From: Ignavibacteriaceae bacterium
Lineage (GTDB): Bacteria > Bacteroidota > Ignavibacteria > Ignavibacteriales > Ignavibacteriaceae
Reading direction: 5' to 3'
Length of the DNA: 64,000 bases
Assembly (NCBI GenBank): GCA_013360295.1
Contig: JABWCL010000002.1
Coordinates: 124,001-188,000, forward strand
The notes under the pieces are model-generated. The model ran no database searches. It was not told the DNA's origin and saw nothing but the letters and a program-made list of their open reading frames with translations. Positions 25,755 to 46,942 of this stretch are shown here, in pieces. The number at the start of each line of letters is the position of its first letter. Position 1 is the first letter of the stretch. Both the position numbers and the translations under genes were made by a program.

Positions 25755-26990
25755 TTATTTGGATTTTGCGTACAGGTCCATCAGTGCTTTAACAAACAAA
25801 TCCGCGACAACTTTACCTCCCTCAGGAGTAAAATGCGTGTAGTCTTTGGAACTGAGCGGGACTTTTGCGTTCACCCATTCCACTACGGAATTCTCACCTC
25901 CCATAGCTTCGTAGAGGTTCCAGAAAGCAATGCCTGTCTTGTCAGCAAGCCTGCGCTGCACGCTGATAAGTTTATCAATGTTTGGTTCAGAAACGAAACG
26001 TGAACCTTTTTTTGCGGCTTTGTCGCTAACGCTGATGATAATAATACTGGTATTCGGAAGCGCGCTTTTAAGATGATTAATCGTTCTTTCCATCCTGTTT
26101 TCATACCAGCTGTAGTCGGTATGTTCAGGAGAAAGTATGTTGACGCCAAAATTTAGCAATACAAGTTTGAGATTCTGATGGTCATCAAATTCCTTAAGGA
26201 TATCGGGCTGAATTTCAGAAATCCCAACTCCGGAATTTCCGCGAAGCGGAAGATTATCCACATAAACTCCGCTCTCATTTTCAAGGCTTACTCCATAAAA
26301 ATCCACATTTTTGCAAGCTGAGAATTCAAATTTAATGGATGATATCGGGATGTTCGATGGGATCATCGTACACTGAACACCTTTTCCGGAAGTTAATTTC
26401 AGGTAATCGGATTTGCCGTTATTAATTGTATATTTTACGCGGCAGTTAGCGTTGCCATTAGAATAATAAAGGAAAACCTTGGATACATTTTTCACACCAC
26501 GGGAGTATTTTGTTATCTCGTACTGCACCCAGCTCCCTTCAGCAGGACGGTATACCGCCCCTCCGATTCCGTATCTCAATTTATTCGGATTTCTTTTAAA
26601 TACCGAGGCATCTTCCCAATCCTCGGAAAAAGTGACTCTGGTGGAAAATCTCATCCCAAAGTCATCAACGTTCATAGTGACAAAACCGGAACCGCTTCCG
26701 CCAAAACGCTGCTGTAAATTAAGCCTGATGTCCTCTGTAACAATGTCACCCAAAATTATAGAATCCCCCCAGTGAGCGACGCGAAGCTTTTTCTGCTTTG
26801 CTTCTTTCAAAGCATTAAAAAAGTGTTTTAACTGGGCAGTGTTTCCTTCTATTGGAACCTGTTTCCCCTGAACCATTGCGTTGTAAACCGCGATTGTGGT
26901 ATTATAATTGTGTGAAAATCCAAATGATAAAAACACCAGTACAACCAAGAAAATAATTCTCAGATTAATCTTCATAACTTTGCTGATCAT
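25755..26990 (-). CDS. SGNH-fold hydrolase/acyltransferase-like protein, paralogue of 44843-46207
   Basis: The 411-residue protein has an N-terminal hydrophobic signal or anchor (about 5-27). The SGNH blocks are visible: block I AHWGDSIILGD (about 71-81, Ser nucleophile), block III LNFGVNIL and block V DYTHFTPEG (Asp-His pair). Between blocks I and III lies a beta-rich insertion of about 150 residues. It is clearly paralogous to the protein at 44843-46207: both share the FFxALK start region, KGSRFVSEP/KGSKFVTDP, TGIAFWNLxEAMGG and the THxxxEG ending. Such periplasmic SGNH proteins often transfer acetyl or other acyl groups onto polysaccharides (AlgX, PatB, DltD) or remove them. It sits 83 nt after the second TPR-barrel gene and ends at a strong terminator. 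Confidence 0.82.
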   Translation of the reverse strand: MISKVMKINLRIIFLVVLVFLSFGFSHNYNTTIAVYNAMVQGKQVPIEGNTAQLKHFFNALKEAKQKKLRVAHWGDSIILGDIVTEDIRLNLQQRFGGSGSGFVTMNVDDFGMRFSTRVTFSEDWEDASVFKRNPNKLRYGIGGAVYRPAEGSWVQYEITKYSRGVKNVSKVFLYYSNGNANCRVKYTINNGKSDYLKLTSGKGVQCTMIPSNIPISSIKFEFSACKNVDFYGVSLENESGVYVDNLPLRGNSGVGISEIQPDILKEFDDHQNLKLVLLNFGVNILSPEHTDYSWYENRMERTINHLKSALPNTSIIIISVSDKAAKKGSRFVSEPNIDKLISVQRRLADKTGIAFWNLYEAMGGENSVVEWVNAKVPLSSKDYTHFTPEGGKVVADLFVKALMDLYAKSK

Positions 26991-27073: not shown

Positions 27074-29947
27074 TTATAAAATTGTCCAGTAGGCAAGAAT
27101 ATATCCCGAAAAGAACTCGTAACTGCCGTCATAACGGTAAGTTCCGCTGTAACCTAATCTGCCGGAAAGAAAAAAGTTCTTCAACGGTTCATACATAGCG
27201 GAAACACTGAACTCCCTAATAAATGAATCTAGATAAGGGATATAACCTGCCTTAACACCCAGTGTATAGGTTAGCTCCGTATTATAAGCTCTCTCCCACT
27301 CAGCCCAAATCGAATGTCCCGCAAAATTCTGAGGGGAGTAATATAAAGTTGATGTTCGCTGATAATTCGCGTACAGATACTCATAACCGCCGAGGATATC
27401 ATGCTGAAATTTTCTTCCAAACCTGAAGATAATATCTGAACCTCTATTTCCGTCGCTCAGCGCCAGAAAACGGTAATACCCGGAGATATGGCTGCCGGAA
27501 CTAAAATTGTACCTTCCTGATAAACGATAAACGTCCGCGTCAATATCAACCAATCCGAGCCTGGCCGAGAGCAAAACAGTCGCGGCATCAGTGTTATCAT
27601 AAGTCAGGCTGATATTATCAAGCTTGTTGAAGAAGTATTTGACCGCGAAATCTTTGACTTTTCTTGTACGCACGAACCTGTATGTCTGGTTGCCAAAACC
27701 GGCGCTGACATAAAACCGTTTGATATTAGCGATCAGGTTCCATTTCAGTGTTGTGTAATACCTGATAAATCCGATTGTCTCTATTATGGTTCTGTTCAGA
27801 TTTGCGCCGACTGAAAAATTTTCTGTAATTCCTGCTTCCACCATCCCGCCTGTATTGTAATAAAGCAGATTTTGTGAATCGGAATAATAGTCCGCTGTTG
27901 GCCCGAGTTTAAAGTATAACGGAACATTAATATTAAAAGTAAACGGCATACTTACGTCCCTCGGAAGCCAGCCCATTCTCAGATTGATCAGATTTATCTG
28001 TTCCGGATCTACAGTCTCCGTAAGAAGTCTTTCATATACCGCCTGTGCGCTGTCGTATTCCTGCAATGACTCATAGCTCTGAGCGAGGTACAGTTTAGCA
28101 TCGAAGCTTGTGCTGTCAAGGCTTATGATATTATTAAATTCATCTCTTGCGCGAACGCTGTCCCCCGACCAGAGATAACTCTTCGCTCTCATAATCGCTA
28201 TATCCCGGTCGTATTCCTGCTCTAAAAGCTGATCGCAAACCTCAATTGCCCTTGTATAATTCTTTGCGCACATATTGACATCTATATACTGAATCAGTTC
28301 ATTCCGCGGAGGGCTTTTCCTTTTCTCAAAATACTCATCATATTTTAAGACAGCGTCACTGCAGTTCTGGTCCATCGCGAGCTGCTGTCCTTCAACAAGG
28401 ATATCATTTATTTTCCGTTCATCTTCCAGTTCAAGGAGGGCGTCGTAATAGTTTTGTATTGTTTCTATTTCGCGGGAATCCGGTGCAACCGCACGGGCAC
28501 GTTCGATGTAACCCGCTGCCGATGTAAAATCCCGCCCCTTGAGAAGCACATTCGCATAGGATATCAGGGCATCCAATTTATTCGGATCTTTAGCAAGGTA
28601 TTCCTCAAGATAAGCCTTTGCCAGATCAATATCGCTTGACATCCACACCGCCACCATCGCACGTAACAATTTATAGTCAAGATTTTCGGGCTCAGACTTA
28701 ATAAGAAATGTGAGGTAGTCTATCGATGTTTCATAGTCCTTATTGTAGGCAGTATACCTTGCAAGGAGGTAGCGGACATCATTATTACCATTCCTGTTAT
28801 TATTAAGAAATGTGGTCAGAATGCTTATGGAATTTTCGTAGTCGAAATCCTTAGCGTAGGTTTCTGCCATCCAAATGACTGCTTCTTTATCATTTTTATC
28901 ATTTTGATATCTGGCTCTCAGAATTTCAATTTCAGCGTTCCTGATGCTGTCTCTGATTCCGGTAACATATTGCCATAACGGGTCAAAACGCTCAGTGCCT
29001 GTCTGGCTGGATGACAATACCTGTAGGTTTTCATAAGCCTCCTGAATACGGTTCACGCCAAGTAAAGCATCTATGAGGCTGTATCGCCTATCAACATCAT
29101 CAGGAGAATTCCTGACTTCCCGGATTAATCTGTCGATATAATATTCCTGCTGTACGATTCCCCTTTTATATTTTTCAAGGTCAAGGAAAGTATCGACATT
29201 TGTATAAATATACGGGCGTTCCTCTGCCTGCTCAAGCCCCTCCTGAGCTTCCCTGAAGAACGGTCTGAAGCCGAGCGCCGTCTTAAAAGCCTCCTGAGCT
29301 ATCTTTCTCTTCCCGAGCCACATAGTAAAGTAACCATAACGGCTCCATAAGCGGTGATCTTTAGGAAACAGTTCGACATATTTCTTTAATATCTTCTCCC
29401 CTTTTTCAATATGCTTGTTCTTGAGCAGGATCTCACAGTATCTTATTACTTCATCCGGTGAAGGATCTTCTCTTTTAATATACTCATCATACCACCATTC
29501 AGCGTCGAGCCACTCACCCAGGTGTTTATGCGACTTACCTATCTCCAGATAATTCAACGGGATGGACGGATCAATTTTTATTTCTCTCTTATGCCCTGCG
29601 ATCTTCTTGCGCAGCAATTTATGCCAGGTTGCTTCTACACGCGCGAGATCTTTTGCAATCACAGGATTTTTCGGATCAATTTTTCTCGCCTGCCGCAAAT
29701 CAAAAACAGAATATTCATACTGTTCCCGCTTCTCATAAGAAAGTCCCCTGAGATGAAGCCCGTCAGATTGCTTTGGCCTTGCCGCGATGTATTTGTTAAG
29801 CAGATCTATAGCTTCGCCATACCTGCCATTGCCCATATGGCGGGTTGCCTCAACTTTTAAAATATCTACACGTGTCTGTGCCTGCGCTTCTATACTTATA
29901 AAAGTAAAAATCGAAAATAAAATTAAAATAAAAGTTCTGTTGAACAT
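27074..29947 (-). CDS. TPR outer-membrane beta-barrel protein (PgaA/BcsC-like), copy 2
   Basis: The 957-residue precursor starts with a signal peptide ending in EAQAQ. From about residue 28 to 670 it is built of TPR-like helical hairpins (GRYGEAIDLLNKYI, LGEWLDAEWWYDEYI and others). From about 680 to 957 it is rich in alternating aromatic beta strands (YaiO-like barrel). The last strand, ILAYWTIL, is a plausible barrel C-terminus. This layout is that of exopolysaccharide secretins such as PgaA and BcsC: periplasmic TPRs guide the chain and the barrel exports it. It is a close paralogue of the adjacent copy 1 and lies 147 nt downstream of it. It might be specialised for a second polymer or form mixed complexes. 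Confidence 0.82.
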   Translation of the reverse strand: MFNRTFILILFSIFTFISIEAQAQTRVDILKVEATRHMGNGRYGEAIDLLNKYIAARPKQSDGLHLRGLSYEKREQYEYSVFDLRQARKIDPKNPVIAKDLARVEATWHKLLRKKIAGHKREIKIDPSIPLNYLEIGKSHKHLGEWLDAEWWYDEYIKREDPSPDEVIRYCEILLKNKHIEKGEKILKKYVELFPKDHRLWSRYGYFTMWLGKRKIAQEAFKTALGFRPFFREAQEGLEQAEERPYIYTNVDTFLDLEKYKRGIVQQEYYIDRLIREVRNSPDDVDRRYSLIDALLGVNRIQEAYENLQVLSSSQTGTERFDPLWQYVTGIRDSIRNAEIEILRARYQNDKNDKEAVIWMAETYAKDFDYENSISILTTFLNNNRNGNNDVRYLLARYTAYNKDYETSIDYLTFLIKSEPENLDYKLLRAMVAVWMSSDIDLAKAYLEEYLAKDPNKLDALISYANVLLKGRDFTSAAGYIERARAVAPDSREIETIQNYYDALLELEDERKINDILVEGQQLAMDQNCSDAVLKYDEYFEKRKSPPRNELIQYIDVNMCAKNYTRAIEVCDQLLEQEYDRDIAIMRAKSYLWSGDSVRARDEFNNIISLDSTSFDAKLYLAQSYESLQEYDSAQAVYERLLTETVDPEQINLINLRMGWLPRDVSMPFTFNINVPLYFKLGPTADYYSDSQNLLYYNTGGMVEAGITENFSVGANLNRTIIETIGFIRYYTTLKWNLIANIKRFYVSAGFGNQTYRFVRTRKVKDFAVKYFFNKLDNISLTYDNTDAATVLLSARLGLVDIDADVYRLSGRYNFSSGSHISGYYRFLALSDGNRGSDIIFRFGRKFQHDILGGYEYLYANYQRTSTLYYSPQNFAGHSIWAEWERAYNTELTYTLGVKAGYIPYLDSFIREFSVSAMYEPLKNFFLSGRLGYSGTYRYDGSYEFFSGYILAYWTIL

Positions 29948-30094: not shown

Positions 30095-32956
30095 TTAAAA
30101 AACATTCCAGTATGCCAACACATAGGCTGAGAGGAATTCGTAACTTCCGTCATACCTGTATGTACCTCCGTAGGAGATTCGGGCAGAAATAAAAAGTACT
30201 TTGAACGGCTGATATATAGCCGCCGCGCTGACTTCCCTGATAAAAAAATCGCTCGCGGGAATGTATCCGGCTTTGGCGCCTAAAGTGTAAGTAAGCGTTG
30301 AGTCATATTTCTGTTCCCACTCTGCCCAGATTGAGTGCGCTGAAAAATCCTGCGGCGAATAATAATAGGCGGAGTATCTGGCGTAATCAGTTGATAAATA
30401 CTCATACCCGCCAAGAATATCATAATCAAACTTGCGGCCTATCCGTAGCTGCATATCTTTACCGGAATTTCCGTCATTAAGCTGCAAAAAGTTGTAAAAT
30501 CCGGTTATGTAAAGCATATTCTTTGTCCGGAAATTCCAAAAGAAGCGGTGAAAGTTAGCGTTAATATTCTGGAAGCCGAGCCGTGCGGAATATAATACTA
30601 TCGCCGCATCAGTGTTTTCAAAAGTATAGCTCAGATTGTTGTGTTTGTCAAAGAAGTACCTTATACCAAAGTCACTTACTTTCCTGATCCTCACGTTCCT
30701 GTAATTCAGGTTTCCGTATCCCGCGTTCAGATACAGCTTGTTATCGAAGTTTGCCAGAAGATTCCATTTCATCGACGTATAAAACCTGATTAAACCGGGG
30801 GTTTCAATTGTTGTCCGGTTGAATGACACGCCTGCCGAAAGAAAACTTAAAAGGCCAAACTCGATCTGTCCGCCGGTGTTGTTATATTTCAGATTCTGGT
30901 TATCCGAGTAAAAATTATATACCGGAGCAATCCTGACAAAAGTTGGAATATCAAGAGAGAAAATATCTCCTCCGCCTTTTGGAAGCCACCCAAGCCGGAG
31001 ATTGATAATTCTGATTTTATTGCTGTCGACTGTTTCTGTGAGGAGTTGGTTGTAAATTCCGCGAGCAGCACTAAAATCCTTTAATACCTCGTAGGTCTCA
31101 GCCAGATAAAACTTCGCGTCAAAACTTGTGCTGTCTTCCGCTACAAGCCGGGTGAATTCATTCAGCGCTTTAATGCTGTCTCCGGACCATAAATAATTCT
31201 TTGAGCGCAAAATGGCAATATCAATATCATATTCCTGTTCGAGAAGCCTGTCATAAACTTCGATGGACTTATTAAAATTCCGCGCGCAGGAGTTAACATC
31301 CGCGTATTCAATCCATTCAAAGCGCGACGGGCTTTTTAGTTTGCTGAAGTATTCATCATATTTCACAACCGCGTCAGGGCAATTTTGCGCAACCGCGAGT
31401 TCCCTTGCTTCCTCAAGGATCTTAAAAACCTTCCGGTCCTCTTCAAGTTCAAGTATTGCATCGTAGTAATTCTGAACTGATTCAATTTCCCTTGCGTTGG
31501 GATTGATGCCTCTCGCCTTCTCAATAAGCGATTTCGCCTCCGTGAACTTCCTCTCCTTAACCATCAGGTTTGCATAGGCAACAATCGCCTCCACGCTCTC
31601 CGGAAACTTTACCAGGTATTCCTCAAGCAGGCTTTTTGCCAGGTCAAGGTCAGTGGTAGTCCAGACCGCCACGAGCGCGCGCAGCAGTTTATACTCATAA
31701 TTTTCCGGTTCAGACTTAAGGAGTATATTGAGCTGTTCAATAGAGGGTTCAAACTGCTGGTTAAAAGCCGTGTACTTGGCAAGCATGAACCTGACGTCAT
31801 TATTACCCTCCATTTTATTCGTGCTTATAAAGAGGGTCAGGATTTCAATCGCCGAATCGAAATCCATAGTAGCGGCGTACAACTCAGCAAGACGCATTAC
31901 GTTGGCTTTGTTGTTTTTATCCGCATCATACAACGCTTTGTATTTGTCTATATTGAACCGGGCGAGGCTGTCCTTTTTACTTGTTACAAATTCCCACAAA
32001 GTATCAAACTTTTCCGTACCGGAATGCTCGACGGATAAAATCTGAAGCTGCTGGTATGCTTCTTCGAACCTGTTGACACCGATAAGAGCGTCAATGAGGG
32101 CATATCTCTTTTCAATGTCACCGGGAGTTTGTCTGATTTCCCTGTAAAGCCTGTCTATATAATACTCTTTTTCAGTCTGCTGTTCCTGCAGTTTTTTCAG
32201 GTCTACGACTGTATCAACAACCGTATATATATAAGGCCGGTTTTCTGCCTGTTCAAGGCCCTCCTGTGCTTCACGGAAGAACGGACGGAAACTCAGTGCT
32301 GTGGTAAACGCGTCTATTGCAATTTTCTTTTTACCAAGCCACATCGTAAAGTATCCGTACCTGCTCCAGAGGCGGTGATCCTTCGGGAATTTTTCAACAT
32401 ATTTTTTTAGGATCCTCTCCCCTTTTTCAATATGGTTGTTGTGAGCGAGTATTTCAGTATAACGTATCACTTCATCCGAAGACGGGTCTTCCCGTTTGAT
32501 GTACTCATCATACCACCATTCAGCATCCTCCCACTCGCCAAGATGCTTATGTGATTTTCCAATTTCAAGGTAATTCAGAGGAATGGCAGGATTTATCGCG
32601 ATTTCTCTTTTATGACCGGAGATTTTTTTCCGTAACAGCTGGTGCCACGTTGAGGTAACACGCCCGAGATCTTTATTTATTTCCGAGTTTTTAGGTTCAA
32701 GTTTTCTGGCGTTGCGCAGGTCAAATACGGAATACTCATATTGTCCGCGCTTTTCATAACACAAGCCCCTGAGATGCAGTCCGTCAGCCTTGCTCGGGCG
32801 TGAAGCAATATATTTATTCAGAAGGTCTATTGCCTCACCATACCTGCCGATAGACATCTGTCTCTGGGCTTCCGCTTTAAGAGCATCCACATTGCTTTGA
32901 GGGTTAGTCCAGCCGGCCAAAAAGAATATCAGGATTAAAACTCTCATAAGCAGCAA
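30095..32956 (-). CDS. TPR outer-membrane beta-barrel protein (PgaA/BcsC-like), copy 1
   Basis: The 953-residue protein has the same plan as its neighbour: signal peptide, about 650 residues of TPR hairpins and a C-terminal barrel of about 270 residues ending VLAYWNVF, with the terminal Phe typical of barrel-assembly signals. Long stretches of the N-terminal half are nearly identical in the two copies (GRYGEAIDLLNKYIA, LNYLEIGKSHKHLGEW, KDHRLWSRYGYFTMWLGK). The barrels are more divergent, which fits a tandem duplication followed by divergence. Its start lies 4 nt after the KaiC/BcsE-like gene, so the two are coupled. Likely role: export of the polymer made by the GT2 synthase. Confidence 0.82.
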   Translation of the reverse strand: MLLMRVLILIFFLAGWTNPQSNVDALKAEAQRQMSIGRYGEAIDLLNKYIASRPSKADGLHLRGLCYEKRGQYEYSVFDLRNARKLEPKNSEINKDLGRVTSTWHQLLRKKISGHKREIAINPAIPLNYLEIGKSHKHLGEWEDAEWWYDEYIKREDPSSDEVIRYTEILAHNNHIEKGERILKKYVEKFPKDHRLWSRYGYFTMWLGKKKIAIDAFTTALSFRPFFREAQEGLEQAENRPYIYTVVDTVVDLKKLQEQQTEKEYYIDRLYREIRQTPGDIEKRYALIDALIGVNRFEEAYQQLQILSVEHSGTEKFDTLWEFVTSKKDSLARFNIDKYKALYDADKNNKANVMRLAELYAATMDFDSAIEILTLFISTNKMEGNNDVRFMLAKYTAFNQQFEPSIEQLNILLKSEPENYEYKLLRALVAVWTTTDLDLAKSLLEEYLVKFPESVEAIVAYANLMVKERKFTEAKSLIEKARGINPNAREIESVQNYYDAILELEEDRKVFKILEEARELAVAQNCPDAVVKYDEYFSKLKSPSRFEWIEYADVNSCARNFNKSIEVYDRLLEQEYDIDIAILRSKNYLWSGDSIKALNEFTRLVAEDSTSFDAKFYLAETYEVLKDFSAARGIYNQLLTETVDSNKIRIINLRLGWLPKGGGDIFSLDIPTFVRIAPVYNFYSDNQNLKYNNTGGQIEFGLLSFLSAGVSFNRTTIETPGLIRFYTSMKWNLLANFDNKLYLNAGYGNLNYRNVRIRKVSDFGIRYFFDKHNNLSYTFENTDAAIVLYSARLGFQNINANFHRFFWNFRTKNMLYITGFYNFLQLNDGNSGKDMQLRIGRKFDYDILGGYEYLSTDYARYSAYYYSPQDFSAHSIWAEWEQKYDSTLTYTLGAKAGYIPASDFFIREVSAAAIYQPFKVLFISARISYGGTYRYDGSYEFLSAYVLAYWNVF

Positions 32957-34472: not shown

Positions 34473-36158
34473 TTATTTACGGTTGAGCATACCAAAAACA
34501 AAAACTGCCGTCGCGTTCGTGACAATGGTTGGCTCATTGGTTATATAATCGTTCCTGTCATCAAAATATTTTACGTTATCCGAGTTAAAAAGGTCCAGTC
34601 CTGAAGGTTTCCTTTCAATTTGATAATTCTTCAGAACATCCTGGGAAGTAGGTCCCGCGGCAATCCCCCCCGGAAGTCCGATCCCCTTCAGATATGTAAT
34701 CTGCAAATGGAAATGTTTTGTATATGTTTTTCCAACGCCCGAAACGAAGGAGATGCCCCAGGGATTTTTACCGAGGATATAATCCATCTGCTTCTGAGCA
34801 AGCGATTCAAATTGTGAATTACCAGTAACTTTTGTATAAAGTATGTTATTAAGTATAACACCAAACAAGAGATGTGTGGTTCCCCAGGGGTAAACACCTA
34901 TGTCACCGTATACAGTGCTGTCAGATAGATGATTCCAGTGTGTAAGGTTATTCTCAATATATCCGAGATACTTTGGATCTTCCGTTGCCAGTCTGTAGTG
35001 GGCCAGCGAATTAACATCTCCCCAGCTCCACCAGTAATCGGGACCGGCGGTTGCAGCATAATCTTTCGAATCTTTAAGGTATGAACCTTTGGAAGTCGCG
35101 CTGAAGAGTTCAAACGCGCCCAGAGCCAGCTTTCCTTCAAACTTTTGATCCTGGTACATTCCGGAAGGAGCAGTGTCAAGATCCGGCGCGCTTCCTTTCA
35201 GCCTGTAGATATTCTCTGCCGATTCAAGTAAACGCCTCGAGTAATCATCATCATAAAACTTGGCTTTCCATATCCTGGAACCAAGCGCTAAAGCAGCGGA
35301 GTAAATACCGATAATGTTTTTACCGATTCCTTTGAACGCCGGCCTTTCATATCGAAGCGGATCATCTTCCGGCAGGCGCCAGCCGACTTCGTGGTCGCGA
35401 AGGTCCTGCACCTGTGTGATCAGGCCCCCCGGTTTGTAGTTACATCTTAAGAGCCAGTCCAGCCCGATACGCGCTTCCTCAAGCACATCCGGCGCACCGC
35501 TGTTATCGCGGTCAAAGCCAAAACGAACCGGATCAAAATCGTAAGCAAAGAGAAGCATATATGTTGTAAACGCCGCGGTGTTTACAAATTTAATGTAATC
35601 TCCTGCATCGTGCCATCCTCCTGTAACATCAACTTTTCCGAACAGGCTGTCACCGGCAATATATGGAGAATCAAAATTATGACACAAACCGTGGAGCATC
35701 GGATTTGTCGGGCCGCATCTCTGTACCCGGAAAAAATCAATCAGGTTCTCGGTCACCCCTGAGTAGATATCGTTACTTATTCTGAAATCGTGTGACTTGT
35801 TATTCCGTATCTGAATCTGATAAGTTCCGGGATCTTTAAGTGCAGAAAAATCAATCTCATAGTTGTGTTTAAAACGTCCCCAGGTTCCGAGGCTTTGCCC
35901 GAGATTACCGCTTATTATCTTCTTGTTGTTTTGAGTATTGATCACGACATAATTTACCCCATCAAGTACCTTTTCAGAAAAAACGATACCTGTTTTAACA
36001 TCATCCTGGCGGTAGCCGTTCTGATTTATCCTGATAAATACATTCACAGCCTCCGAAGGGGTACATCCTTCAGTAATTCCGGCTCCGATCATTAATAACA
36101 CAGCAATTATTAATCTCACTAAAATCTTTCTGTATCTGAATAATACCCGGTTATTCAT
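34473..36158 (-). CDS. Glycoside hydrolase family 9 (endoglucanase-like) lipoprotein
   Basis: The 561-residue protein starts with a hydrophobic signal ending in a candidate lipidation Cys32 (GITEGC). An Ig-like CelD_N domain (about 37-128; INQNGYRQDDVKTGIVF) comes next, then the (alpha/alpha)6 barrel of GH9. The catalytic Asp pair is in GGWHDAGDYIKF (D184 and D187) and the acid Glu is in ITNEPT (E542) close to the C-terminus. GH9 enzymes cut beta-1,4-glucans with inversion. In an exopolysaccharide locus it may trim nascent chains during secretion, as the GH8 enzyme BcsZ does in cellulose operons. It lies upstream of the KaiC-like gene with a 237-nt gap, so it may have its own promoter or be transcribed with the M16 genes before it. 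Confidence 0.9.
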   Translation of the reverse strand: MNNRVLFRYRKILVRLIIAVLLMIGAGITEGCTPSEAVNVFIRINQNGYRQDDVKTGIVFSEKVLDGVNYVVINTQNNKKIISGNLGQSLGTWGRFKHNYEIDFSALKDPGTYQIQIRNNKSHDFRISNDIYSGVTENLIDFFRVQRCGPTNPMLHGLCHNFDSPYIAGDSLFGKVDVTGGWHDAGDYIKFVNTAAFTTYMLLFAYDFDPVRFGFDRDNSGAPDVLEEARIGLDWLLRCNYKPGGLITQVQDLRDHEVGWRLPEDDPLRYERPAFKGIGKNIIGIYSAALALGSRIWKAKFYDDDYSRRLLESAENIYRLKGSAPDLDTAPSGMYQDQKFEGKLALGAFELFSATSKGSYLKDSKDYAATAGPDYWWSWGDVNSLAHYRLATEDPKYLGYIENNLTHWNHLSDSTVYGDIGVYPWGTTHLLFGVILNNILYTKVTGNSQFESLAQKQMDYILGKNPWGISFVSGVGKTYTKHFHLQITYLKGIGLPGGIAAGPTSQDVLKNYQIERKPSGLDLFNSDNVKYFDDRNDYITNEPTIVTNATAVFVFGMLNRK

Positions 36159-40178: not shown

Positions 40179-41372
40179 TCAATCCTGGTTGAGTATTGTG
40201 GTTTTTACGGGGATTATTCCCGGGAGGATTGGGTTTGGTAATAATCTTTTTGCCCGGATAAAGGTTCTAAGTCTGTAAGCGCTGAAGATCTTACTGTTCC
40301 TGTCGAAACTGTTAATCTTCACTCTTCCGGCAGCGTGGATAAATTCCTTCCCCCCCAGGTAGATCGCGACGTGGGTAATGCGTTCCCTGGTGCTGTCGGT
40401 TGCCTTTTCTCCAAAGAAGAGAAGGTCGCCGGGGAACACATTCTCAAAATCACTTCCCGTCTCCACCGGCATACCAACGTGAACCTGCTGTGAAGCGTCA
40501 CGCGGCAGCACTGCACCGTTCAGAAAGAATACAGTTTTTGTAAAACCGCTGCAGTCTAATCCTTTTGCAGAAGTTCCGCCCCATAAATAAGGGACACCCA
40601 TAAAAAGCTTCGCCGTACTTATTATCTCGCCTGCTTTAATATTATTTTCATCAATGCCTTCCGCCCATTTTGTAAAAGGAATATGATCCTCGTTCTTCAC
40701 ATAGCACAAACGGCCGTCAGGAAGCTTTGCTTCCGCAAATTCACCGCTTGTGCCGGTTTTGGAGAGGATATTCCCTATCACCAGATCGGTTACAATGGCG
40801 CTCTTCAGATCAGCCTTCTCATAACCAAGGCACGCATTTGAGGTAATAATAATTTTTTCGGTATCGTTCCACTGATTGAATGAGGATTCATCCATAGGCA
40901 TTAGCCCGTCGTCATCCATCCATCCAAGGTAATTATCAGGAGTCTGGACGAGATACCAGTCACGAACTTTTTTATAAACTTTGAGCGGAGTGCCAAGTAT
41001 TGCCTGTGTGGCCATTTCCGCAGAGTGTTCCGGCTTTGTCCTCATATTTGCAACGGATATCGTCACCACACCGAATGGTTTCAGAGCCGCTTCACCCGAG
41101 GGAAGAACAATAATACTGTCGCTGAAAGTCAGACCTGCATCGGTGAGCCTTTTCAATAAGGCATCTTTAGCTTTACCGGAGGTTGTCTCTCCGTTTAATT
41201 TAACCTTTGAATCCTCGGAAGAAAAACTGATACTGAACAACACAGTTCTTTTATCCGGCGAAAACTCCTTCTGAACGGAGCTTATCAGATTTTCTATCAG
41301 CTCCGTTTGCTGGGCATTGATCATAGAAGCAAACAAAAAAATAAAAATGTAAATAAAATTTTTAAACATCAT
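40179..41372 (-). CDS. NlpC/P60 cysteine peptidase with SH3-like domains
   Basis: The 397-residue exported protein has a signal peptide (about 1-20), two SH3b-like domains (about 100-160 and 175-235) and a C-terminal NlpC/P60 domain. The catalytic Cys274 is in GLDCSGF and the His is in RITHVAIYLGG, followed by HAAGRV. The plan matches YkfC-type gamma-D-Glu-diamino-acid endopeptidases that cut murein peptides. The epimerase that would process the L-Ala-gamma-D-Glu product starts 1 nt downstream. Its start overlaps the MBOAT stop by 1 nt, so it continues the acyl-transfer operon. Confidence 0.9.
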   Translation of the reverse strand: MMFKNFIYIFIFLFASMINAQQTELIENLISSVQKEFSPDKRTVLFSISFSSEDSKVKLNGETTSGKAKDALLKRLTDAGLTFSDSIIVLPSGEAALKPFGVVTISVANMRTKPEHSAEMATQAILGTPLKVYKKVRDWYLVQTPDNYLGWMDDDGLMPMDESSFNQWNDTEKIIITSNACLGYEKADLKSAIVTDLVIGNILSKTGTSGEFAEAKLPDGRLCYVKNEDHIPFTKWAEGIDENNIKAGEIISTAKLFMGVPYLWGGTSAKGLDCSGFTKTVFFLNGAVLPRDASQQVHVGMPVETGSDFENVFPGDLLFFGEKATDSTRERITHVAIYLGGKEFIHAAGRVKINSFDRNSKIFSAYRLRTFIRAKRLLPNPILPGIIPVKTTILNQD

Positions 41373-42865
41373 TAAAACTGGAAGTAAATAAAGGGTTGAA
41401 TATCAGCAGCCATAAACTGCCAGCTGAACCATATTGCAAAAGCTAATAAAAATGCCTGCACGATAAGCGGCGCTTTACCAACAACTTTATACGCGGCAGC
41501 GCTTAACTTTTCGGGCATAAAATGAAGCAGGTACCCTATCCCTATCAGCACCGAGATCATCTGGTAACTCTGTAAAAACTGCGGGAATACCCCGGGCTTA
41601 AAGAAGTTCACCATCTGGCTGTACATATCGGCAATTATCTTAAGATCGTGTGCCCTGAAAAAGACCCACGCAAACGCAACAAGATGAAAGGTGAACAAGA
41701 TCCTGAAAAACCCGAGAAATTTGCTATTTGTAAGGTTTAACTTCTTAATAATAGCGGTTCGCGGTTTATTCGTTACGATACCTACAACCATAAATAATCC
41801 GTGCAAGCCTCCCCAGATAACAAAGTTCCAGCTTGGGCCGTGCCATAATCCGCAAAGGATAAAAGTTATTAAGAGTGCAAGGGCATTACCGAGCATACGC
41901 ATATTGCGCATACCCATCTGCAGCGGTGTAAACAGATACTCCAGCAGCCACGCGGAAAGAGACATATGCCAGCGGCGCCAGAATTCCGCGACGCTCTTTG
42001 CCTTGTAAGGATAATTAAAGTTCTCCATCAGCTTGAAGCCAAGCAGCAGGGAAACACCAAGCGCCATATCGGTATAACCCGAAAAATCGCAGTAGATCTG
42101 AAGCGCGTATCCGTATATCCCTATCAGGTTCTCAACGCCCGTGTACCTCAAAGGATCATCAAAGATCCTGTCCACGTAATTCAAACCGATATAATCCGCG
42201 ATCACATTTTTCTTTATCAGACCTAAGATGATAAGAAAGACTCCGCGGGATATATCTTCACGCGTTACGGAGTAATTTCTCGCCTGTTCAATGAACGCGG
42301 GCGCCCGGTCAATCGGGCCGGCTGATATATTGCCGAAGTAAGCCATATACAAAAGGAAATCGGCAAAGTTCCGGGTCGGGGTGTATGTTTCGTAATAAAT
42401 ATCAAAAAGATAACTCAGCGCCTTGAAGGTGAAAAATGAGATACCAAGCGGCACGAGTATATCCAGAGCTTCAAATTCCTTTCCCTGGAAATCAGCAACT
42501 GTCCTCAGAAAGAAGTTAGTGTATTTATAGTATCCGAGCGCGGCAAGATTAAGAATTATTCCAATCCAGAGGTACAGTTTCCGCATCCCTTCCGCTTTCG
42601 CGTTATGGAGAACATAACCGACTCCGAAATTCAGAAGCGAGGAAAGAACAAGGACATAAAGCGCCGTTCCGCTGTTCTTATAAAAAAAGAAAGCGGAAAA
42701 GAGGAGCAGAATATAAACTCTTGCCCTGCTGTTGCTGAAGACTGTTATGGCGAAAAGGAGCCCGAGAAAAAGAAAGAGGAAGAGCGAAGATGAAAAATAT
42801 AACGGGTTAAATTTATCATATTCTAATAAAGACCAGACTTTAGTCAGTTCTATATAGTGAAACAA
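41372..42865 (-). CDS. MBOAT membrane-bound O-acyltransferase
   Basis: The 497-residue protein has about ten to twelve membrane segments and the features of the AlgI/DltB family. These are the conserved WRRWHMSLSAWL motif (H300), the second His342 in LWHGPSWNFVIWGGLHG, and AGPIDR in an early loop. Such proteins pass an acyl group from a cytoplasmic donor across the membrane to a periplasmic acceptor. A carrier protein and an acyl-AMP ligase are encoded directly before it (21-nt gap to the carrier), and SGNH proteins lie further upstream. So a cytoplasmic acyl-carrier donor is likely instead of acetyl-CoA. The next gene overlaps by 1 nt. Target polymer unknown; the exopolysaccharide of the neighbouring locus is the obvious candidate. 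Confidence 0.93.
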   Translation of the reverse strand: MFHYIELTKVWSLLEYDKFNPLYFSSSLFLFLFLGLLFAITVFSNSRARVYILLLFSAFFFYKNSGTALYVLVLSSLLNFGVGYVLHNAKAEGMRKLYLWIGIILNLAALGYYKYTNFFLRTVADFQGKEFEALDILVPLGISFFTFKALSYLFDIYYETYTPTRNFADFLLYMAYFGNISAGPIDRAPAFIEQARNYSVTREDISRGVFLIILGLIKKNVIADYIGLNYVDRIFDDPLRYTGVENLIGIYGYALQIYCDFSGYTDMALGVSLLLGFKLMENFNYPYKAKSVAEFWRRWHMSLSAWLLEYLFTPLQMGMRNMRMLGNALALLITFILCGLWHGPSWNFVIWGGLHGLFMVVGIVTNKPRTAIIKKLNLTNSKFLGFFRILFTFHLVAFAWVFFRAHDLKIIADMYSQMVNFFKPGVFPQFLQSYQMISVLIGIGYLLHFMPEKLSAAAYKVVGKAPLIVQAFLLAFAIWFSWQFMAADIQPFIYFQF

Positions 42866-42886
42866 TAGTATTCCTTGTTTATGTGA

Positions 42887-43120
42887 TTACTTGTTCTGCT
42901 TGGAATCGATTAATTTCTGAAGGTCCCCGATATTTTTGCATTTCAGCACTTCTATCGCCTTGAAGCGCAGGCCGTAATCTTTTTCAATCGCCGTTATGAC
43001 GTTGATATGATTGAGGGAATCCCAGCCCGGTATCTGGTTTGCCATTGTGGCATCTTCAATAGTGAAGTCATCGAGTTTGAGTTCGGTTAAGATTGCTTTT
43101 TTCAGTTTGTCAGATATCAT
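42887..43120 (-). CDS. Acyl carrier protein (DltC-like position)
   Basis: The 77-residue four-helix carrier has the phosphopantetheine attachment Ser35 in GWDSLNHIN. Unusually few acidic residues follow the Ser when compared with fatty-acid ACPs, as is common for dedicated carriers. It starts 1 nt after the stop of the FAAL-like ligase gene and 21 nt before MBOAT. It should receive an acyl group from the ligase and present it to MBOAT. Confidence 0.93.
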   Translation of the reverse strand: MISDKLKKAILTELKLDDFTIEDATMANQIPGWDSLNHINVITAIEKDYGLRFKAIEVLKCKNIGDLQKLIDSKQNK

Positions 43121-43121
43121 T

Positions 43122-44819
43122 TTATACCACTAAATATTCTTTATGTTCGTCAATTCTTTCTCTGTTTGCTTTCCTGCTCGGTTTGCCGGCGGAGCTCTTA
43201 ATTAACCAGCGGGACGGGACAATATATACCCTTCCCACCGTTTCGTCATTCGCTAATGTTGCCTGAAGAATACGCATCCTTAGTTCCTTTTTTTCCTTTT
43301 CGTCGGTAATATTCGACTCGGCGATCACGCAGACCACCTCGGTGCCAAGCGCTTCGTCATCGGTTCCAAAGGCGATAACCCTGCCCGGAAGGACTCCCTC
43401 AACCTGGGAAACGGTATCTTCCACGTCTTCGGGATAAATGTTTTTACCTGCAACAATAATTATATCTTTCTTCCTGCCGATCACGTAGCACTCGCCGTCA
43501 AGCACAAACCCGTAATCACCGCTGTAGTACCAGCCGTCTTCCAGCACCTCGGCAGTCTTTTCAGGGTAGTTCCGGTAACCGTCAAACATTGAGACGGATT
43601 TTATCGCGATCTCTCCGAATGTATCAGAAGGAAGCGTCTCGCGTTTGTCCCCGACAATTCTAACGTCACACCCCTTAATCACCTTACCGGATGAAACACA
43701 AACTCTCGCGTTTGTCGGATCATCTACCAGTTTAAGTTTCCCCTGCTTCAGCATCTCACGGTCCGCGTAAACCTGTTTTGGCACTTCACCGGGAGCGGAT
43801 TGTGTAACGCCGAATGTCGTTTCCGCCATCGCGTAGCAGGTTGCAAGCGATAATGGATTCAGTTTATACTGCGTGAACCGCTCAATAAAGCGCCTGTGGC
43901 TTTCAGCCCTCACAGGCTCACTGCAGTTGATGATCATCCGCATTGATGCAAGTGATACTCCCTCAAGTTCATCATCAAAAACTTTATCTGCTAACATATT
44001 ATATGCAAAATTCGGCAGCCAGCAGAGTGTGGCTTTCTCCGCGGAGATCGCTTCCAGTTGCAGAACCGGGGCAATCACCCACTCAAACGGATCTATCTGC
44101 ACTGTCGGAATACCGTATGCGAGCGGAAGATGGTAAGCCGCAATCAGTCCCATATCGTGATAGAGCGGAAGCCAGCTTACAATTTTATCCTCAGCGGTAA
44201 GATTGATGCTCTCTGAATAATACTCGACGTGCCTGATGACCGCGCTGTGCGAAAGAAGAACGGGCTTTTGTAAACCTGTTGTTCCCGATGAGTGCTGAAG
44301 CAATATCGGGTCTGAGGGCTTGATTTCTCTCCTGGCAAGCTCGATCTCTTCTAAATCGGCCTGCGGTATTTCTGCTGACTGATCCCATTCAAGCGGAAAG
44401 TGCAACCCTTTAATTGTGCTGCTCTGTATAAGCGGCGAAATTATCGGTTCGAGTTCCTTCTCCGTAAAAATATAATCGAGGCCGGAGCGCTGGGACATTC
44501 CGATAATTCCCTGCCGGAATTTATCCGGGTGCAGCCTCGGATTAGGATAGGCAAGCACAGCCGGTATCGCTCCGAGTCCCACGATTCCCATATAGAGAGG
44601 ATAAAACATAGGATTGTGCCTGATGATGATTGCACACACCTGATCCCGCTTTATTCCGTTCTGTTTAAGAAGATAGGAAAACTTTAATGCTGTCGCGAGC
44701 AGGCTCTTCTTCGTCCATCTGAACGGGTCCTCCCCGGCTTTCCAGTGAATTATTGCATCTGATTCGGGATTTCGCTCCGCGTTTTCTGTCCAGACCTGCC
44801 AAATTGTTTTTTCTGTCAT
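43122..44819 (-). CDS. Fatty-acyl-AMP ligase-like (FAAL-type) adenylating enzyme
   Basis: The 565-residue ANL-superfamily enzyme has the AMP-binding P-loop LLQHSSGTTGLQKP (about 193-206), the FAAL-typical SWLPLYHDMGLI segment, and CSEPVR where acyl-AMP ligases of this group have GAEPV. The later SGDYGFV motif binds the ribose and a Lys-rich C-terminal subdomain ends in SSAGKPSRKANR, with the catalytic Lys. It should activate a carboxylic acid as acyl-AMP and load the adjacent carrier protein (stop and start 1 nt apart). This is the same role DltA plays for D-alanine; here the FAAL-like motifs suggest a fatty or small aliphatic acid. The acid cannot be read from sequence. Confidence 0.88.
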   Translation of the reverse strand: MTEKTIWQVWTENAERNPESDAIIHWKAGEDPFRWTKKSLLATALKFSYLLKQNGIKRDQVCAIIIRHNPMFYPLYMGIVGLGAIPAVLAYPNPRLHPDKFRQGIIGMSQRSGLDYIFTEKELEPIISPLIQSSTIKGLHFPLEWDQSAEIPQADLEEIELARREIKPSDPILLQHSSGTTGLQKPVLLSHSAVIRHVEYYSESINLTAEDKIVSWLPLYHDMGLIAAYHLPLAYGIPTVQIDPFEWVIAPVLQLEAISAEKATLCWLPNFAYNMLADKVFDDELEGVSLASMRMIINCSEPVRAESHRRFIERFTQYKLNPLSLATCYAMAETTFGVTQSAPGEVPKQVYADREMLKQGKLKLVDDPTNARVCVSSGKVIKGCDVRIVGDKRETLPSDTFGEIAIKSVSMFDGYRNYPEKTAEVLEDGWYYSGDYGFVLDGECYVIGRKKDIIIVAGKNIYPEDVEDTVSQVEGVLPGRVIAFGTDDEALGTEVVCVIAESNITDEKEKKELRMRILQATLANDETVGRVYIVPSRWLIKSSAGKPSRKANRERIDEHKEYLVV

Positions 44820-44842
44820 TATATTAATTCTTCTTTTAATAA

Positions 44843-46207
44843 TTATTTAGCTGAAGAAAGTAACGCGTCGCTGATTAATTCAGCTACCTTGCGCGCGCCC
44901 TCTGTATTCAGATGAGTATAGTCCTTCGCCGCAAGGCCGTCCGCAACCCACTGGCTCATTGATTCCTGCCCCCCCATCGCTTCGAACAGGTTCCAGAAGG
45001 CGATGCCTGTCTGTTCCGCGATACCTTTCTGTGCTTCAATTAATTTCAGCACTTTCGGATCAGTAACAAATTTTGAGCCTTTCTTCAGCCCCTTATCCTG
45101 AACTCCGATCAGCAGGATACTCGTATTCGGGAAATTGGCTTTTAGTGTATTCACAACTTTTACCATTGCTGTTTCATACCAGCTGAAATCACGGGCTTCA
45201 CCGCCGGCGCTTACCATATTAAGCCCGAACTGAAGCACGATCAGTTTGTAATCGAGAATTTTGTTAAACTGCTTCAGGAGCGCCTCGTCCATATCTCTCA
45301 TCCCGGTGCCTGAGTTCCCTCTCAGCGGGAAATTATCAATATAAACTCCGTTACCATCCTCAAGGCTGACACCGAAATAAACAGTGCCGGCTGAAGCCGG
45401 GATATCAAGCTTTAATGACTTTGCCCTGTTCGGATAAGTCAGCACATTTTCCTGCACTTCTGATGCAGGCTTGAGTGATACGCTTTTAGCGCCTTCATCA
45501 TTAAACGAATAATTTACATTAACGGATTTATCGCTTGTGTAGAAGATCCTTGCGGAAGAAAAATTCTTAACGCCGTACCTTCCGGTAGCGACGTATTTTA
45601 CCCAGGAAGCCTCTCCTGCCTTTGCCGCAGTGCCGTTGATCCCAAGTTTCAGTTTATCCGGGTTAGTGCCGAATAACGAGCCGAATGTCCATTTGGGGGA
45701 AAAGGAGTGCTCGGTAGTGACACGAAAAGCAATATCCTGTGCATTTATAGCGAGCATCCCAACGCCGTTACCGCCATATTTGGACTGAATATTTTTCCTG
45801 AGGTCCGCTGAAATAAGGTCGCCTTCAATAACAGAGTCGCCAAAGTGGGCGATACGGACCTTCCTGCTTTTGGATGATTTCAACGCTTCGTAAAAATATT
45901 TCATCTGTTCTGTATTTCCCGTTATGGGAACCTTGGATTGCACGGGGACGGAAGGCTGAGAGAACGAACCGTTATTGTTATAATTATTTACCGGACGGCC
46001 CACAGTGAATAGCGACGCAAAAACGGGACTAACCGGATGCGTTTTAGCGCTGATAAGTGAATCAGGTTTAACATCAATGAGCAGGTCCATCTCCTTAACC
46101 TTGTAAAAACCAAGGTCGAAGTCAACAGGTATGCTGCTGAATATAAACGTAAACACGACTGCAAAAAGTATCAAAAGAAAAGGTTTATAGCGTTCCTGAA
46201 TATTCAT
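44843..46207 (-). CDS. SGNH-fold acyltransferase/esterase-like protein, paralogue of 25755-26990
   Basis: The 454-residue protein has an N-terminal membrane anchor (about 10-28), a short linker and an SGNH core. Block I is AHFGDSVIEGD (about 123-133), block III LQFGLNM, and block V DYTHLNTEG gives the Asp-His pair. Between blocks I and III is a beta-rich insertion, like that of the 25755-26990 paralogue. A SWYE motif and the EAMGG segment are shared. It is encoded directly before the ligase-carrier-MBOAT genes (23-nt spacing), the place where DltD or the AlgJ/X-type transferase occurs in related systems. So it probably moves the acyl group from MBOAT to the polymer in the periplasm; hydrolysis is the alternative. 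Confidence 0.82.
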   Translation of the reverse strand: MNIQERYKPFLLILFAVVFTFIFSSIPVDFDLGFYKVKEMDLLIDVKPDSLISAKTHPVSPVFASLFTVGRPVNNYNNNGSFSQPSVPVQSKVPITGNTEQMKYFYEALKSSKSRKVRIAHFGDSVIEGDLISADLRKNIQSKYGGNGVGMLAINAQDIAFRVTTEHSFSPKWTFGSLFGTNPDKLKLGINGTAAKAGEASWVKYVATGRYGVKNFSSARIFYTSDKSVNVNYSFNDEGAKSVSLKPASEVQENVLTYPNRAKSLKLDIPASAGTVYFGVSLEDGNGVYIDNFPLRGNSGTGMRDMDEALLKQFNKILDYKLIVLQFGLNMVSAGGEARDFSWYETAMVKVVNTLKANFPNTSILLIGVQDKGLKKGSKFVTDPKVLKLIEAQKGIAEQTGIAFWNLFEAMGGQESMSQWVADGLAAKDYTHLNTEGARKVAELISDALLSSAK

Positions 46208-46231
46208 TTTTATAACACACTCCTCGAATTA

Positions 46232-46900
46232 TTAATATCCGTACTTAAGTAAAATTTTATTAACTTCTTCACCCCATAATTTATAACCGCCTGCATTGAG
46301 ATGCACGCCGTCGTGAGTCAGTTCATCTTTGAGGGCAAATGAACGGGAAAGTTTCGCGTTCAGATCAATAAAATCAAGCCCATTCTGCCTGCAGTAATCT
46401 TCCAATAAAACATTTAGTTTTTTAACTTCATTATTCCTGTCAGAGGCTGCCGTATACTTTTGAGATACATAAAGCGTTGACTGTACGATCACTCTGATAT
46501 TATTCTTTTTCAGTTCCTCCATCACCTTTTTATAATTGGCAAAAACCGTCTCAACCGGTATCCAGGAATAGATATCATTGATCCCGGCCTTTATCAGGCA
46601 AAGCTTAGGCTTAAGGCTGACCACAAATTCCAGCCTGTTGAGTATTCCCTCAAGGTTGTCGCTGGGAATGCCTCTCTCGACAACATTATCCCTGCCGAGC
46701 AGCTCATTCCAGTTAACCCCGTGAGTTATCGAATTTCCCAGAAGGACAACATCTGCCCTCTTTTTTTTGTAGATCTTGTAGAACTCAAGCTCATACTTGT
46801 AATTTGGGTTTTTCAGGTAGGCGGCGGTATCGCTCTGGGGCAATATCTCACTGCACCCAAAAGCTAATAAAACTATAAAAAATAAAGACTTAGCAATCAT
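46232..46900 (-). CDS. GDSL/SGNH lipoprotein
   Basis: The ATG start at 46900 gives 222 residues and a lipoprotein signal (SLFFIVLLAFGC). A longer frame to 46942 would begin with TTG and adds 14 residues that displace the signal, so I prefer the shorter one. The SGNH motifs are block I LLGNSITHG (Ser nucleophile), block III KAGINDI and block V DGVHLNAGG (Asp-His). It is compact, without the beta insertion of the two other SGNH proteins here, and resembles simple GDSL acyl or sialate-type esterases. It lies 24 nt upstream of the larger SGNH gene and begins the acyl-transfer operon, so it may remove acyl groups or take part in transfer. Confidence 0.82.
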   Translation of the reverse strand: MIAKSLFFIVLLAFGCSEILPQSDTAAYLKNPNYKYELEFYKIYKKKRADVVLLGNSITHGVNWNELLGRDNVVERGIPSDNLEGILNRLEFVVSLKPKLCLIKAGINDIYSWIPVETVFANYKKVMEELKKNNIRVIVQSTLYVSQKYTAASDRNNEVKKLNVLLEDYCRQNGLDFIDLNAKLSRSFALKDELTHDGVHLNAGGYKLWGEEVNKILLKYGY

Positions 46901-46942
46901 AACAGTAATACACCGGAATCCTTGGTTTTGTTCCATAATCAA

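Follow-up and report, generated by a model that had tools for sequence, protein, structure and literature searches.

What would a ligase, a carrier protein and a membrane acyltransferase reminiscent of the Dlt pathway of D-alanylation be doing in a Gram-negative genome, and on which acceptor might they place which acyl group? The question is raised by a stretch of 64,000 nucleotides from an Ignavibacteriaceae bacterium (assembly GCA_013360295.1, contig JABWCL010000002.1, positions 124,001 to 188,000), the whole of which is referred to here as the window. On its minus strand, from 46942 to 41372, five intact open reading frames (ORFs) encode SGNH1, SGNH2, a fatty acyl-AMP ligase (FAAL), an acyl carrier protein (ACP) and a membrane-bound O-acyltransferase (MBOAT), in that order and with intergenic gaps of 24, 23, 1 and 21 bases. 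Pfam places each above cut-off in the expected family (Lipase_GDSL_2 twice, AMP-binding, PP-binding and MBOAT), bearing out an earlier note on this DNA that had proposed a Dlt-like acyl-transfer module in a Gram-negative genome. All five genes, ordered alike, are found again in relatives (MBOAT identities 48-76%), and this form is present in all three sampled families (f1, f2 and f3) of the order; it is therefore not a chance arrangement, and is confirmed as a real, conserved hybrid in an Ignavibacteria genome. The set is best filed as a variant of MBOAT-SGNH polymer acylation, with the acyl group and the acceptor as predictions, and we lean slightly towards O-acylation of a secreted polysaccharide by an MBOAT-SGNH system that depends on a carrier protein.

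The ligase (43122..44819, 565 amino acids) is the proposed loader of the carrier. Its first PDB matches by sequence are FAALs, and FAAL structures again come first when its AlphaFold model (mean pLDDT 90) is searched with Foldseek, followed by some adenylation domains of non-ribosomal peptide synthetases (NRPSs) and, from rank 40, by coenzyme A (CoA) ligases. The FAAL insertion in the N-terminal domain is present, the compared segment being 63 residues long in the window ligase and in an annotated Streptomyces FAAL, and shorter in DltA (42) and two amino-acid ligases (45). Of 101 NCBIfam matches, the best 25 feature fatty acyl-AMP ligase models prominently, one of them ranking second (281 bits) behind long-chain-fatty-acid--CoA ligase (289 bits); the ligase falls below the cut-off of all these 25 (PRK09192, 281 bits against 600), and DltA (TIGR01734, cut-off 560) is absent from them, the 25th scoring 99.7 bits. 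From the PDB relatives, the Foldseek ranking and the insertion we conclude that the ligase is a FAAL and not a DltA, as the earlier note had held. Its nearest named record, at 69% identity, is in an Ignavibacteria assembly (L071); in one other locus (L047, 4326-7838) FAAL genes are duplicated in tandem. The dedicated ACP (42887..43120, 77 amino acids) passes PP-binding PF00550 narrowly, with 22.4 bits against a cut-off of 20.8, and has its phosphopantetheine (Ppant) site at Ser35 in GWDSLNH; the serine of this WDS is kept in all 28 relatives' carriers compared. One MBOAT gene (PF03062) and one AcpS-type phosphopantetheinyl transferase (PF01648) were found in the source assembly (4.46 Mb, 92 contigs).

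The MBOAT (41372..42865, 497 amino acids, PF03062) is modelled with a pLDDT of 87 and a pTM of 0.87, and its best fold match is DltB (E 5e-14), with PORCN and HHAT behind and LPCAT3 also among the matches; at 184 bits against the DltB equivalog cut-off of 375 (TIGR04091) it is a relative and not a member of that family. Its His342, which aligns with DltB His336 and is invariant in alignment A3, is the predicted catalytic histidine. The C-terminal FIYFQF (41375..41392), identified from sequence and relatives, is an FXYXXF acyl-shuttle motif with Tyr494 as its tyrosine; this tyrosine is kept in 42 of 42 MBOATs compared, and the strict motif is present in 127 of 158. In PatA the tyrosine of the motif is acylated, according to a 2025 paper (PMC12148441). 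There is no DltX gene within the set, where gaps of 1-24 bases leave no room for one, and FXYXXF is instead fused to the MBOAT. Because this MBOAT combines FXYXXF with a DltB-like fold and a carrier, a Dlt-like inner half (ligase, carrier and MBOAT) is joined to a Pat/Alg-like outer half in which the MBOAT-fused motif replaces DltX.

With the Dlt pathway the set thus shares an AMP-forming ligase, a small Ppant carrier, a DltB-like MBOAT fold, an SGNH partner and a docking helix without GG[NS]; it differs in having a FAAL for DltA, in the fused motif, in the score of its MBOAT and in its host. The proposal that the gene order mirrors the dlt operon has to be given up, since the operon compared runs dltX-A-B-C-D and both DltX and the DltD family are missing here, SGNH1 and SGNH2 matching Lipase_GDSL families only in Pfam. 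A teichoic acid acceptor is unlikely in a Gram-negative lineage.

The docking helix offers a candidate mark of carrier use. In DltB, the carrier DltC sits on helix HC and contacts Met302, Val305, Ile306 and Met309, as described in PMC11035591. The RWH..GLWHG segment holding helix HC in the window MBOAT (residues 298-343; 41837..41974) is without GG[NS], and among the MBOATs compared [LM]GG[NS] stands at helix HC in 79 of the 88 proteins without an ACP nearby and in none of the 43 that are ACP-linked (Fisher p 5e-26, ignoring relatedness), where ACP-linked means a carrier-profile match within 3 kb on either strand. These 131 rows are ORFs of at least 350 amino acids in which an RWH..WHG segment can be recognised; of 159 rows in all, 28 had no such segment and were left out (13 ACP-linked, mostly from Chloroflexi and Acidobacteria, and 15 not). 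A GG match in L127 (RSGGD) was judged spurious and drops under the stricter [LM]GG[NS], and L220, a duplicate of L071, is within the 43 and is excluded from the tree, where the window stands instead, and from the counts of 31 loci and 158 MBOATs. Two plasmid DltBs likewise have no GG[NS] in the docking helix. Within 39 ACP-linked MBOATs of the FXYXXF type, position His+17 (DltB Ile306) is hydrophobic in 37; the notion that DltB-like hydrophobics occupy every DltC contact was rejected, position +13 being mostly K/R (28/39) and +16 Q (34/39). In a quick tree made without the HC columns, 33 ACP-linked lineage MBOATs, the window's included, form one clade with a support of 100 in the Shimodaira-Hasegawa-like approximate likelihood-ratio test (SH-aLRT), and this clade joins 9 ACP-less MBOATs at 93; SH-aLRT is the only support computed, and L127, L231, L155, L077, L098, L061 and L107 have long branches.

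The relatives supply a natural series, one locus being found in three states: SGNH1-SGNH2-MBOAT without a carrier, SGNH-ACP-MBOAT without a FAAL, and the full set. The loader at 31 main-clade ACP loci is a FAAL in 24, FkbH in 3 and amino-acid/DltA-like ligases in 1, with none in view in 3 (the window and the ACP-less sisters are not counted, and where several loaders are near, FAAL is counted first and then FkbH); one of the three loader-less loci, L025, is truncated where its contig stops, and a FAAL at the edge of a different contig probably belongs to it. Through these changes of loader the SGNH-ACP-MBOAT core is retained. FkbH makes glyceryl-ACP, and it serves as an alternative loader beside the same ACP-MBOAT core, unlike the FAAL of the window, in L051, L053 and L054 (316, 311 and 288 bits against the NCBIfam cut-off of 147) and, by an in-house profile, in L207. 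In L050 (10492-15039) two GNAT-like genes, recognised by eye, and two amino-acid/DltA-like ligases replace the FAAL beside SGNH2-ACP-MBOAT; the amino-acid adenylation model gives these ligases 293 and 310 bits, short of its cut-off of 317, and the arrangement suggests an aminoacyl or N-acyl-aminoacyl donor. In L054 (11411-17887) extra ACPs and KAS III-like, SDR and VOC genes, again by eye, adjoin the core together with FkbH, possibly as a small pathway that builds an acyl group on the carrier. No FAAL of this kind was found at E 1e-60 in genomes G008, G016, G017, G021 and G023; G004 has FkbH beside the core, yet has a FAAL on another contig. ORFs in the compared loci were called mechanically.

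This series bears on whether the FAAL and ACP belong to a secondary-metabolite pathway and lie by chance beside an ordinary MBOAT-SGNH pair that uses acetyl-CoA, which we regard as very improbable. FAALs mostly initiate polyketide or peptide pathways, and in the FAAL-ACP pairs of lipopeptide and olefin pathways the FAAL fold, the insertion and the adjacent ACP are the same as here; moreover, 51 of the best 80 FAAL loci in a scan of the collection have no MBOAT within 5 kb. The other 29 do have one, in Ignavibacteria, Lindowbacteria, Nannocystis, Anaerolineae, Acidobacteria, Planctomycetes and others, and an ACP is beside 55 of 158 MBOAT ORFs. Against a chance neighbourhood stand the recurrence of FAAL-ACP-MBOAT in 24 of the 31 main-clade loci, its presence with distant MBOATs in L067, L072, L075, L077 and L107, the lack in the window MBOAT of the GG[NS] motif of its ACP-less sisters, and the absence of any polyketide synthase (PKS) or NRPS match among 29 window proteins scanned in Pfam; the proposed recipient from the acyl-ACP is the MBOAT. 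A grouping of ligase and carrier with an unrelated pathway, named in the earlier note as grounds for dropping its proposal, is likewise not what we see, as all 23 genomes with this FAAL, in a set of 41, also have an MBOAT. That transfer is carrier-fed we consider highly likely.

On the other side of the membrane, two SGNH proteins open the set. SGNH2 (44843..46207, 454 amino acids, Lipase_GDSL_2), the proposed acyltransferase, consists of an N-terminal membrane segment, a linker and an SGNH domain split by an inserted region, with Ser125, Asp429 and His432. SGNH1 (46232..46942, 236 amino acids, PF13472 at 82 bits) is a GDSL_2 protein in which a GNSIT block I and a DGVH block V can be recognised by eye; it is probably an esterase or an accessory protein, and is not universal, being absent beside the MBOAT in several relatives. 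A third protein, SGNH3 (25755..26990, minus strand), is 40% identical to SGNH2, is without its N-terminal segment and adjoins a polymer synthase gene.

The N-terminal segment links these loci. Residues 1-50 of SGNH2 (46058..46207) contain a hydrophobic helix and the motif VKEMDLLIDVKPD, and in relatives whose SGNH enzyme is elsewhere the same segment occurs as a separate microprotein of 51-87 amino acids. Wherever a full SGNH2 is missing at the MBOAT, which is the case in 6 of the loci fetched, a microprotein matching the segment is found there, 5 by BLAST and one by eye, beside the FAAL or the ACP (L033 12304-12459, L035 12510-12773, L040 1568-1738, L046 5496-5666, L047 7904-8104 and L053 7872-8039). 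The ORFs of L035, L040, L046, L047 and L053 (55-87 amino acids) match the N-terminal segment of SGNH2 only (BLAST E 2e-10 to 8e-4), the 51-amino-acid ORF of L033 has the same helix and motif by eye, and L073 too has such an ORF. A stricter, segment-only search of 8132 short ORFs returned only L047, L073 and L040 at E<=1 and no unrelated ORF; the pieces being short, the scores on which homology rests are weak. In some relatives the microprotein is without an FXYXXF motif, unlike DltX. These sequences suggest that in SGNH2 a membrane microprotein is fused to an enzyme of the SGNH3 type, a relation that would tie the synthase-side SGNH enzyme to the MBOAT locus.

Downstream of the module is a polymer locus, to which SGNH3 and a GH9 gene belong. 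Its synthase (24210..25613, minus strand, like the genes of its locus given below) is a GT2 processive synthase, PgaC/IcaA-like, at 212 bits against an equivalog cut-off of 422, and is the proposed maker of the acceptor. Near it are two adjacent paralogues, 61% identical, that combine TPRs with a C-terminal beta-barrel: protein b (27074..29947), export-porin-like with its barrel seen by eye, and protein a (30095..32956), with weak BcsC/PgaA matches. Alginate export also has a TPR protein. Among the 41 genomes, main-clade MBOAT, SGNH2/3 and GT2 are found together in all 31 that have the MBOAT, and the 10 without it have SGNH2/3 in none and GT2 in 5. The main clade is counted here as MBOATs at least 44% identical to that of the window, plus a 43% fragment in G010, leaving out paralogues at 31-41%. 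SGNH3 is beside GT2 (less than 6 kb away on one contig) in 13 of the 31, and in 6 of these 13 none is beside the MBOAT. Co-occurrence and split anchor together favour an exopolysaccharide over peptidoglycan, and that the GT2 polymer is the acceptor appears to us somewhat the better choice. The earlier suggestion that a carrier, and not acetyl-CoA, delivers an acyl group other than D-Ala to an exopolysaccharide is thereby supported, although short of proof, by the FAAL, the Ppant serine, the DltB-like fold, the lack of GG[NS] and the shared occurrence of MBOAT, SGNH2/3 and GT2.

The same counts bear on another reading, in which MBOAT, ACP and FAAL acylate a lipid or a protein and the SGNH genes encode esterases with an unrelated function. 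Fatty acids are the usual substrates of FAALs, and the eukaryotic fold relatives of the MBOAT (PORCN, HHAT and LPCAT3) act on lipids and proteins. We nonetheless judge it rather improbable, given that FXYXXF is kept, that SGNH2/3 accompanies the MBOAT in 31 of 31 genomes and is found in 0 of 10 without it, and that DltB is the best fold match; the nearest folds are not lipid acyltransferases, an outcome that the earlier note had set as a way in which its proposal could fail.

How a polysaccharide might be acylated can be sketched from gene content, protein families, conserved motifs and conserved association. The FAAL would convert a free fatty acid, or another free carboxylic acid, into its acyl-AMP and charge the Ppant arm of the ACP with the acyl group. 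At the cytoplasmic face, the acyl-ACP would dock on helix HC of the MBOAT. His342 would then hand the acyl group to Tyr494 of the C-terminal FXYXXF at the periplasmic face, from where it would pass to the serine of SGNH2, held by its N-terminal anchor, or of its paralogue SGNH3. Either enzyme would esterify the GT2-made polymer exported through the TPR-barrel proteins, and SGNH1 may remove or edit acyl groups.

Several observations weigh against this scheme. The helix HC contrast shrinks when relatedness is corrected for: the tree gives 7 independent pairs, of which 2-5 (mean 4.5) differ in the motif, with a median p of 0.0625, and 9 ACP-less MBOATs are also without GG[NS]. In the pairs that differ, GG[NS] is always opposed to the carrier, as expected, and the tie between its loss and carrier use is only suggestive. 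MBOAT and GT2 are on one contig in only 5 of 31 genomes, the assemblies being fragmented. In genome G014 a FAAL-ACP pair accompanies a distant MBOAT, and SGNH2/3 and GT2 are both missing; the donor pair is therefore not bound to this polymer. In 5 genomes (G001, G003, G028, G030 and G032) a murein-type NlpC gene is less than 6 kb from the MBOAT and off the GT2 contig. Finally, SGNH2 keeps the glycine of block II, where its RGNSG aligns with GINGA of PDB 4k3u and both glycines are invariant in alignment A2.

The last two points, and 4k3u itself, keep alternative acceptors and roles in play. A profile of SGNH2 matches 4k3u in PDB at E 3e-32, aligning on both sides of the insert, and another SGNH protein (8gkd/8gld) at E 1e-18, with nothing else at E 0.01; 4k3u, listed as a GDSL-like Lipase/Acylhydrolase, is presumably Ape1, and peptidoglycan therefore remains a rival acceptor. 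Under this alternative, which we think unlikely without dismissing it, the same carrier-fed transfer would place a non-acetyl group on peptidoglycan in a PatAB/Ape1-like manner. It agrees with the kinship to Ape1, with the NlpC genes of the five genomes just named, with an M23 peptidase after a TPR gene in L058, and with the window, where the MBOAT is followed by an NlpC/P60 gene with an SH3 domain (40179..41372, minus strand), overlapping it by one base, and by an L-Ala-D/L-Glu-epimerase-like gene. The PatAB/Ape1 system moreover shares the C-terminal FXYXXF of the MBOAT and an SGNH protein with an N-terminal hydrophobic helix; it differs in using acetyl-CoA where a carrier and ligase stand here, and the co-occurring GT2 polymer locus and the GDSL_2 assignment of SGNH2, with its block II glycine, also set the present loci apart. 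NlpC does not track the MBOAT, because its linkage is mixed and 8 of 31 MBOAT genomes gave no match to it at E 1e-30: 8 genomes have it near GT2 only (7-11 kb, on a contig apart from the MBOAT), the 5 have it near the MBOAT only, and in 4 it shares one contig with both. The 13 of 31 genomes that have SGNH3 next to GT2, and the split anchor that ties the two loci, likewise point away from peptidoglycan. We have withdrawn an assignment of NlpC to the synthase locus, given this mixture, and the peptidoglycan reading gains a little from it.

The block II glycine concerns the role of SGNH2 whichever the acceptor. Ser or Asn at block II goes with transferases, and PatB has the glycine replaced, according to PMC12148441; by this rule SGNH2, unlike PatB, fits an esterase better, and Ape1 is described as an esterase in PMC9487903. 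SGNH2 might then be a de-acylating esterase, with another protein as the final transferase, a doubtful alternative in our view. Of the two SGNH families only SGNH2/3 goes with every main-clade MBOAT in the 41 genomes, no search for other transferases having been made, and SGNH1 is missing beside several MBOATs. The strict co-presence argues for a transferase, and we take SGNH2/3 to be one with reasonable confidence.

Compared with the earlier note, the analysis adds the fused shuttle motif, the exchange of loaders, the split SGNH anchor and the Ape1-like SGNH protein. The closest functional parallels of a polysaccharide-acylating system are AlgIJX in alginate and Wss in cellulose O-acetylation, where an MBOAT and an SGNH protein likewise act on a synthase-made exopolysaccharide. 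According to the 2025 paper (PMC12148441), these and the other MBOAT-SGNH pathways apart from Dlt lack a carrier, evidently through use of acyl-CoA. With an ACP beside its MBOAT, the gene set is a candidate counter-case to that rule. A literature search returned nothing joining MBOAT with fatty acyl-AMP ligase and nothing joining membrane-bound O-acyltransferase, acyl carrier protein and exopolysaccharide, and the titles and abstract openings of the matches listed contain no case of an MBOAT that modifies a polymer together with a carrier and either FAAL or FkbH.

Carrier-dependent polymer acylation may accordingly be a third and widespread Gram-negative branch of MBOAT-SGNH systems, a generalisation on which we are evenly divided. 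It would have one core (ACP, FXYXXF-MBOAT and SGNH), exchangeable loaders (FAAL, FkbH or amino-acid ligase) and several origins, each remodelling helix HC from a GG[NS] site to an ACP-docking helix, with the SGNH enzyme plugged to the MBOAT by a splittable membrane segment. Were this so, related polymers would bear fatty, glyceryl-like or aminoacyl groups; and if carriers feed FXYXXF-MBOATs, polymers may carry long, hydroxylated or aminoacylated groups that CoA-based reasoning misses, and a short helix HC signature could separate carrier users from CoA users. The series of loci, from those with no ACP to those with an ACP and a FAAL, FkbH or amino-acid ligase, is a test bed for the rewiring of donor specificity, and also an enzyme set for making acylated polysaccharides.

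Some further loci depart from the common pattern. The MBOATs of the Anaerolineae loci compared, with the exception of L098, are without FXYXXF, and a second carrier-fed type may therefore exist. In two Anaerolineales loci (L081 5961-11671 and L091 6154-11665) an MBOAT without a C-terminal FXYXXF is followed by more ORFs, an ACP and a FAAL, possibly such a second type or one served by a separate shuttle peptide. In L155 (1949-7224), on pSymB of S. meliloti, a VOC protein, an MBOAT ending in FLYQGF, a second gene, an ACP and an FkbH-like gene form a possible carrier-fed MBOAT set in a rhizobium; the second gene is annotated as a TonB-dependent receptor and has no Pfam match, and the FkbH-like gene, cut by the end of the fetched stretch, scores 92 bits, below the cut-off. 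MBOATs are in tandem in L058 (8251-11216), and on a Ligilactobacillus murinus plasmid (L152, 4435-5843) an orphan dltB directly follows a bactofencin-type bacteriocin gene.

As for the surroundings, a relative of TPR-barrel protein a directly follows the MBOAT in several genomes of family f2. In the window the GH9 glycoside hydrolase of the polymer locus (34473..36158, minus strand) is assigned by Pfam and adjoins a KaiC/TPR block in several relatives, and between it and the TPR-barrel gene there is a KaiC-like ATPase (32961-34235) that is kept in several genomes. A reading of 21819-23717 as a polysaccharide deacetylase was dropped. Upstream of the module is a GHL10 glycosidase-like protein with Golvesin_C and a type IX secretion system (T9SS) sorting tail (48833-50704), and a GHL10-like gene is upstream of the module also in relatives L032, L033, L039 and L043. 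A second T9SS sorting tail is carried by an MtrC/MtrF-like multihaem cytochrome at 13050-14780.

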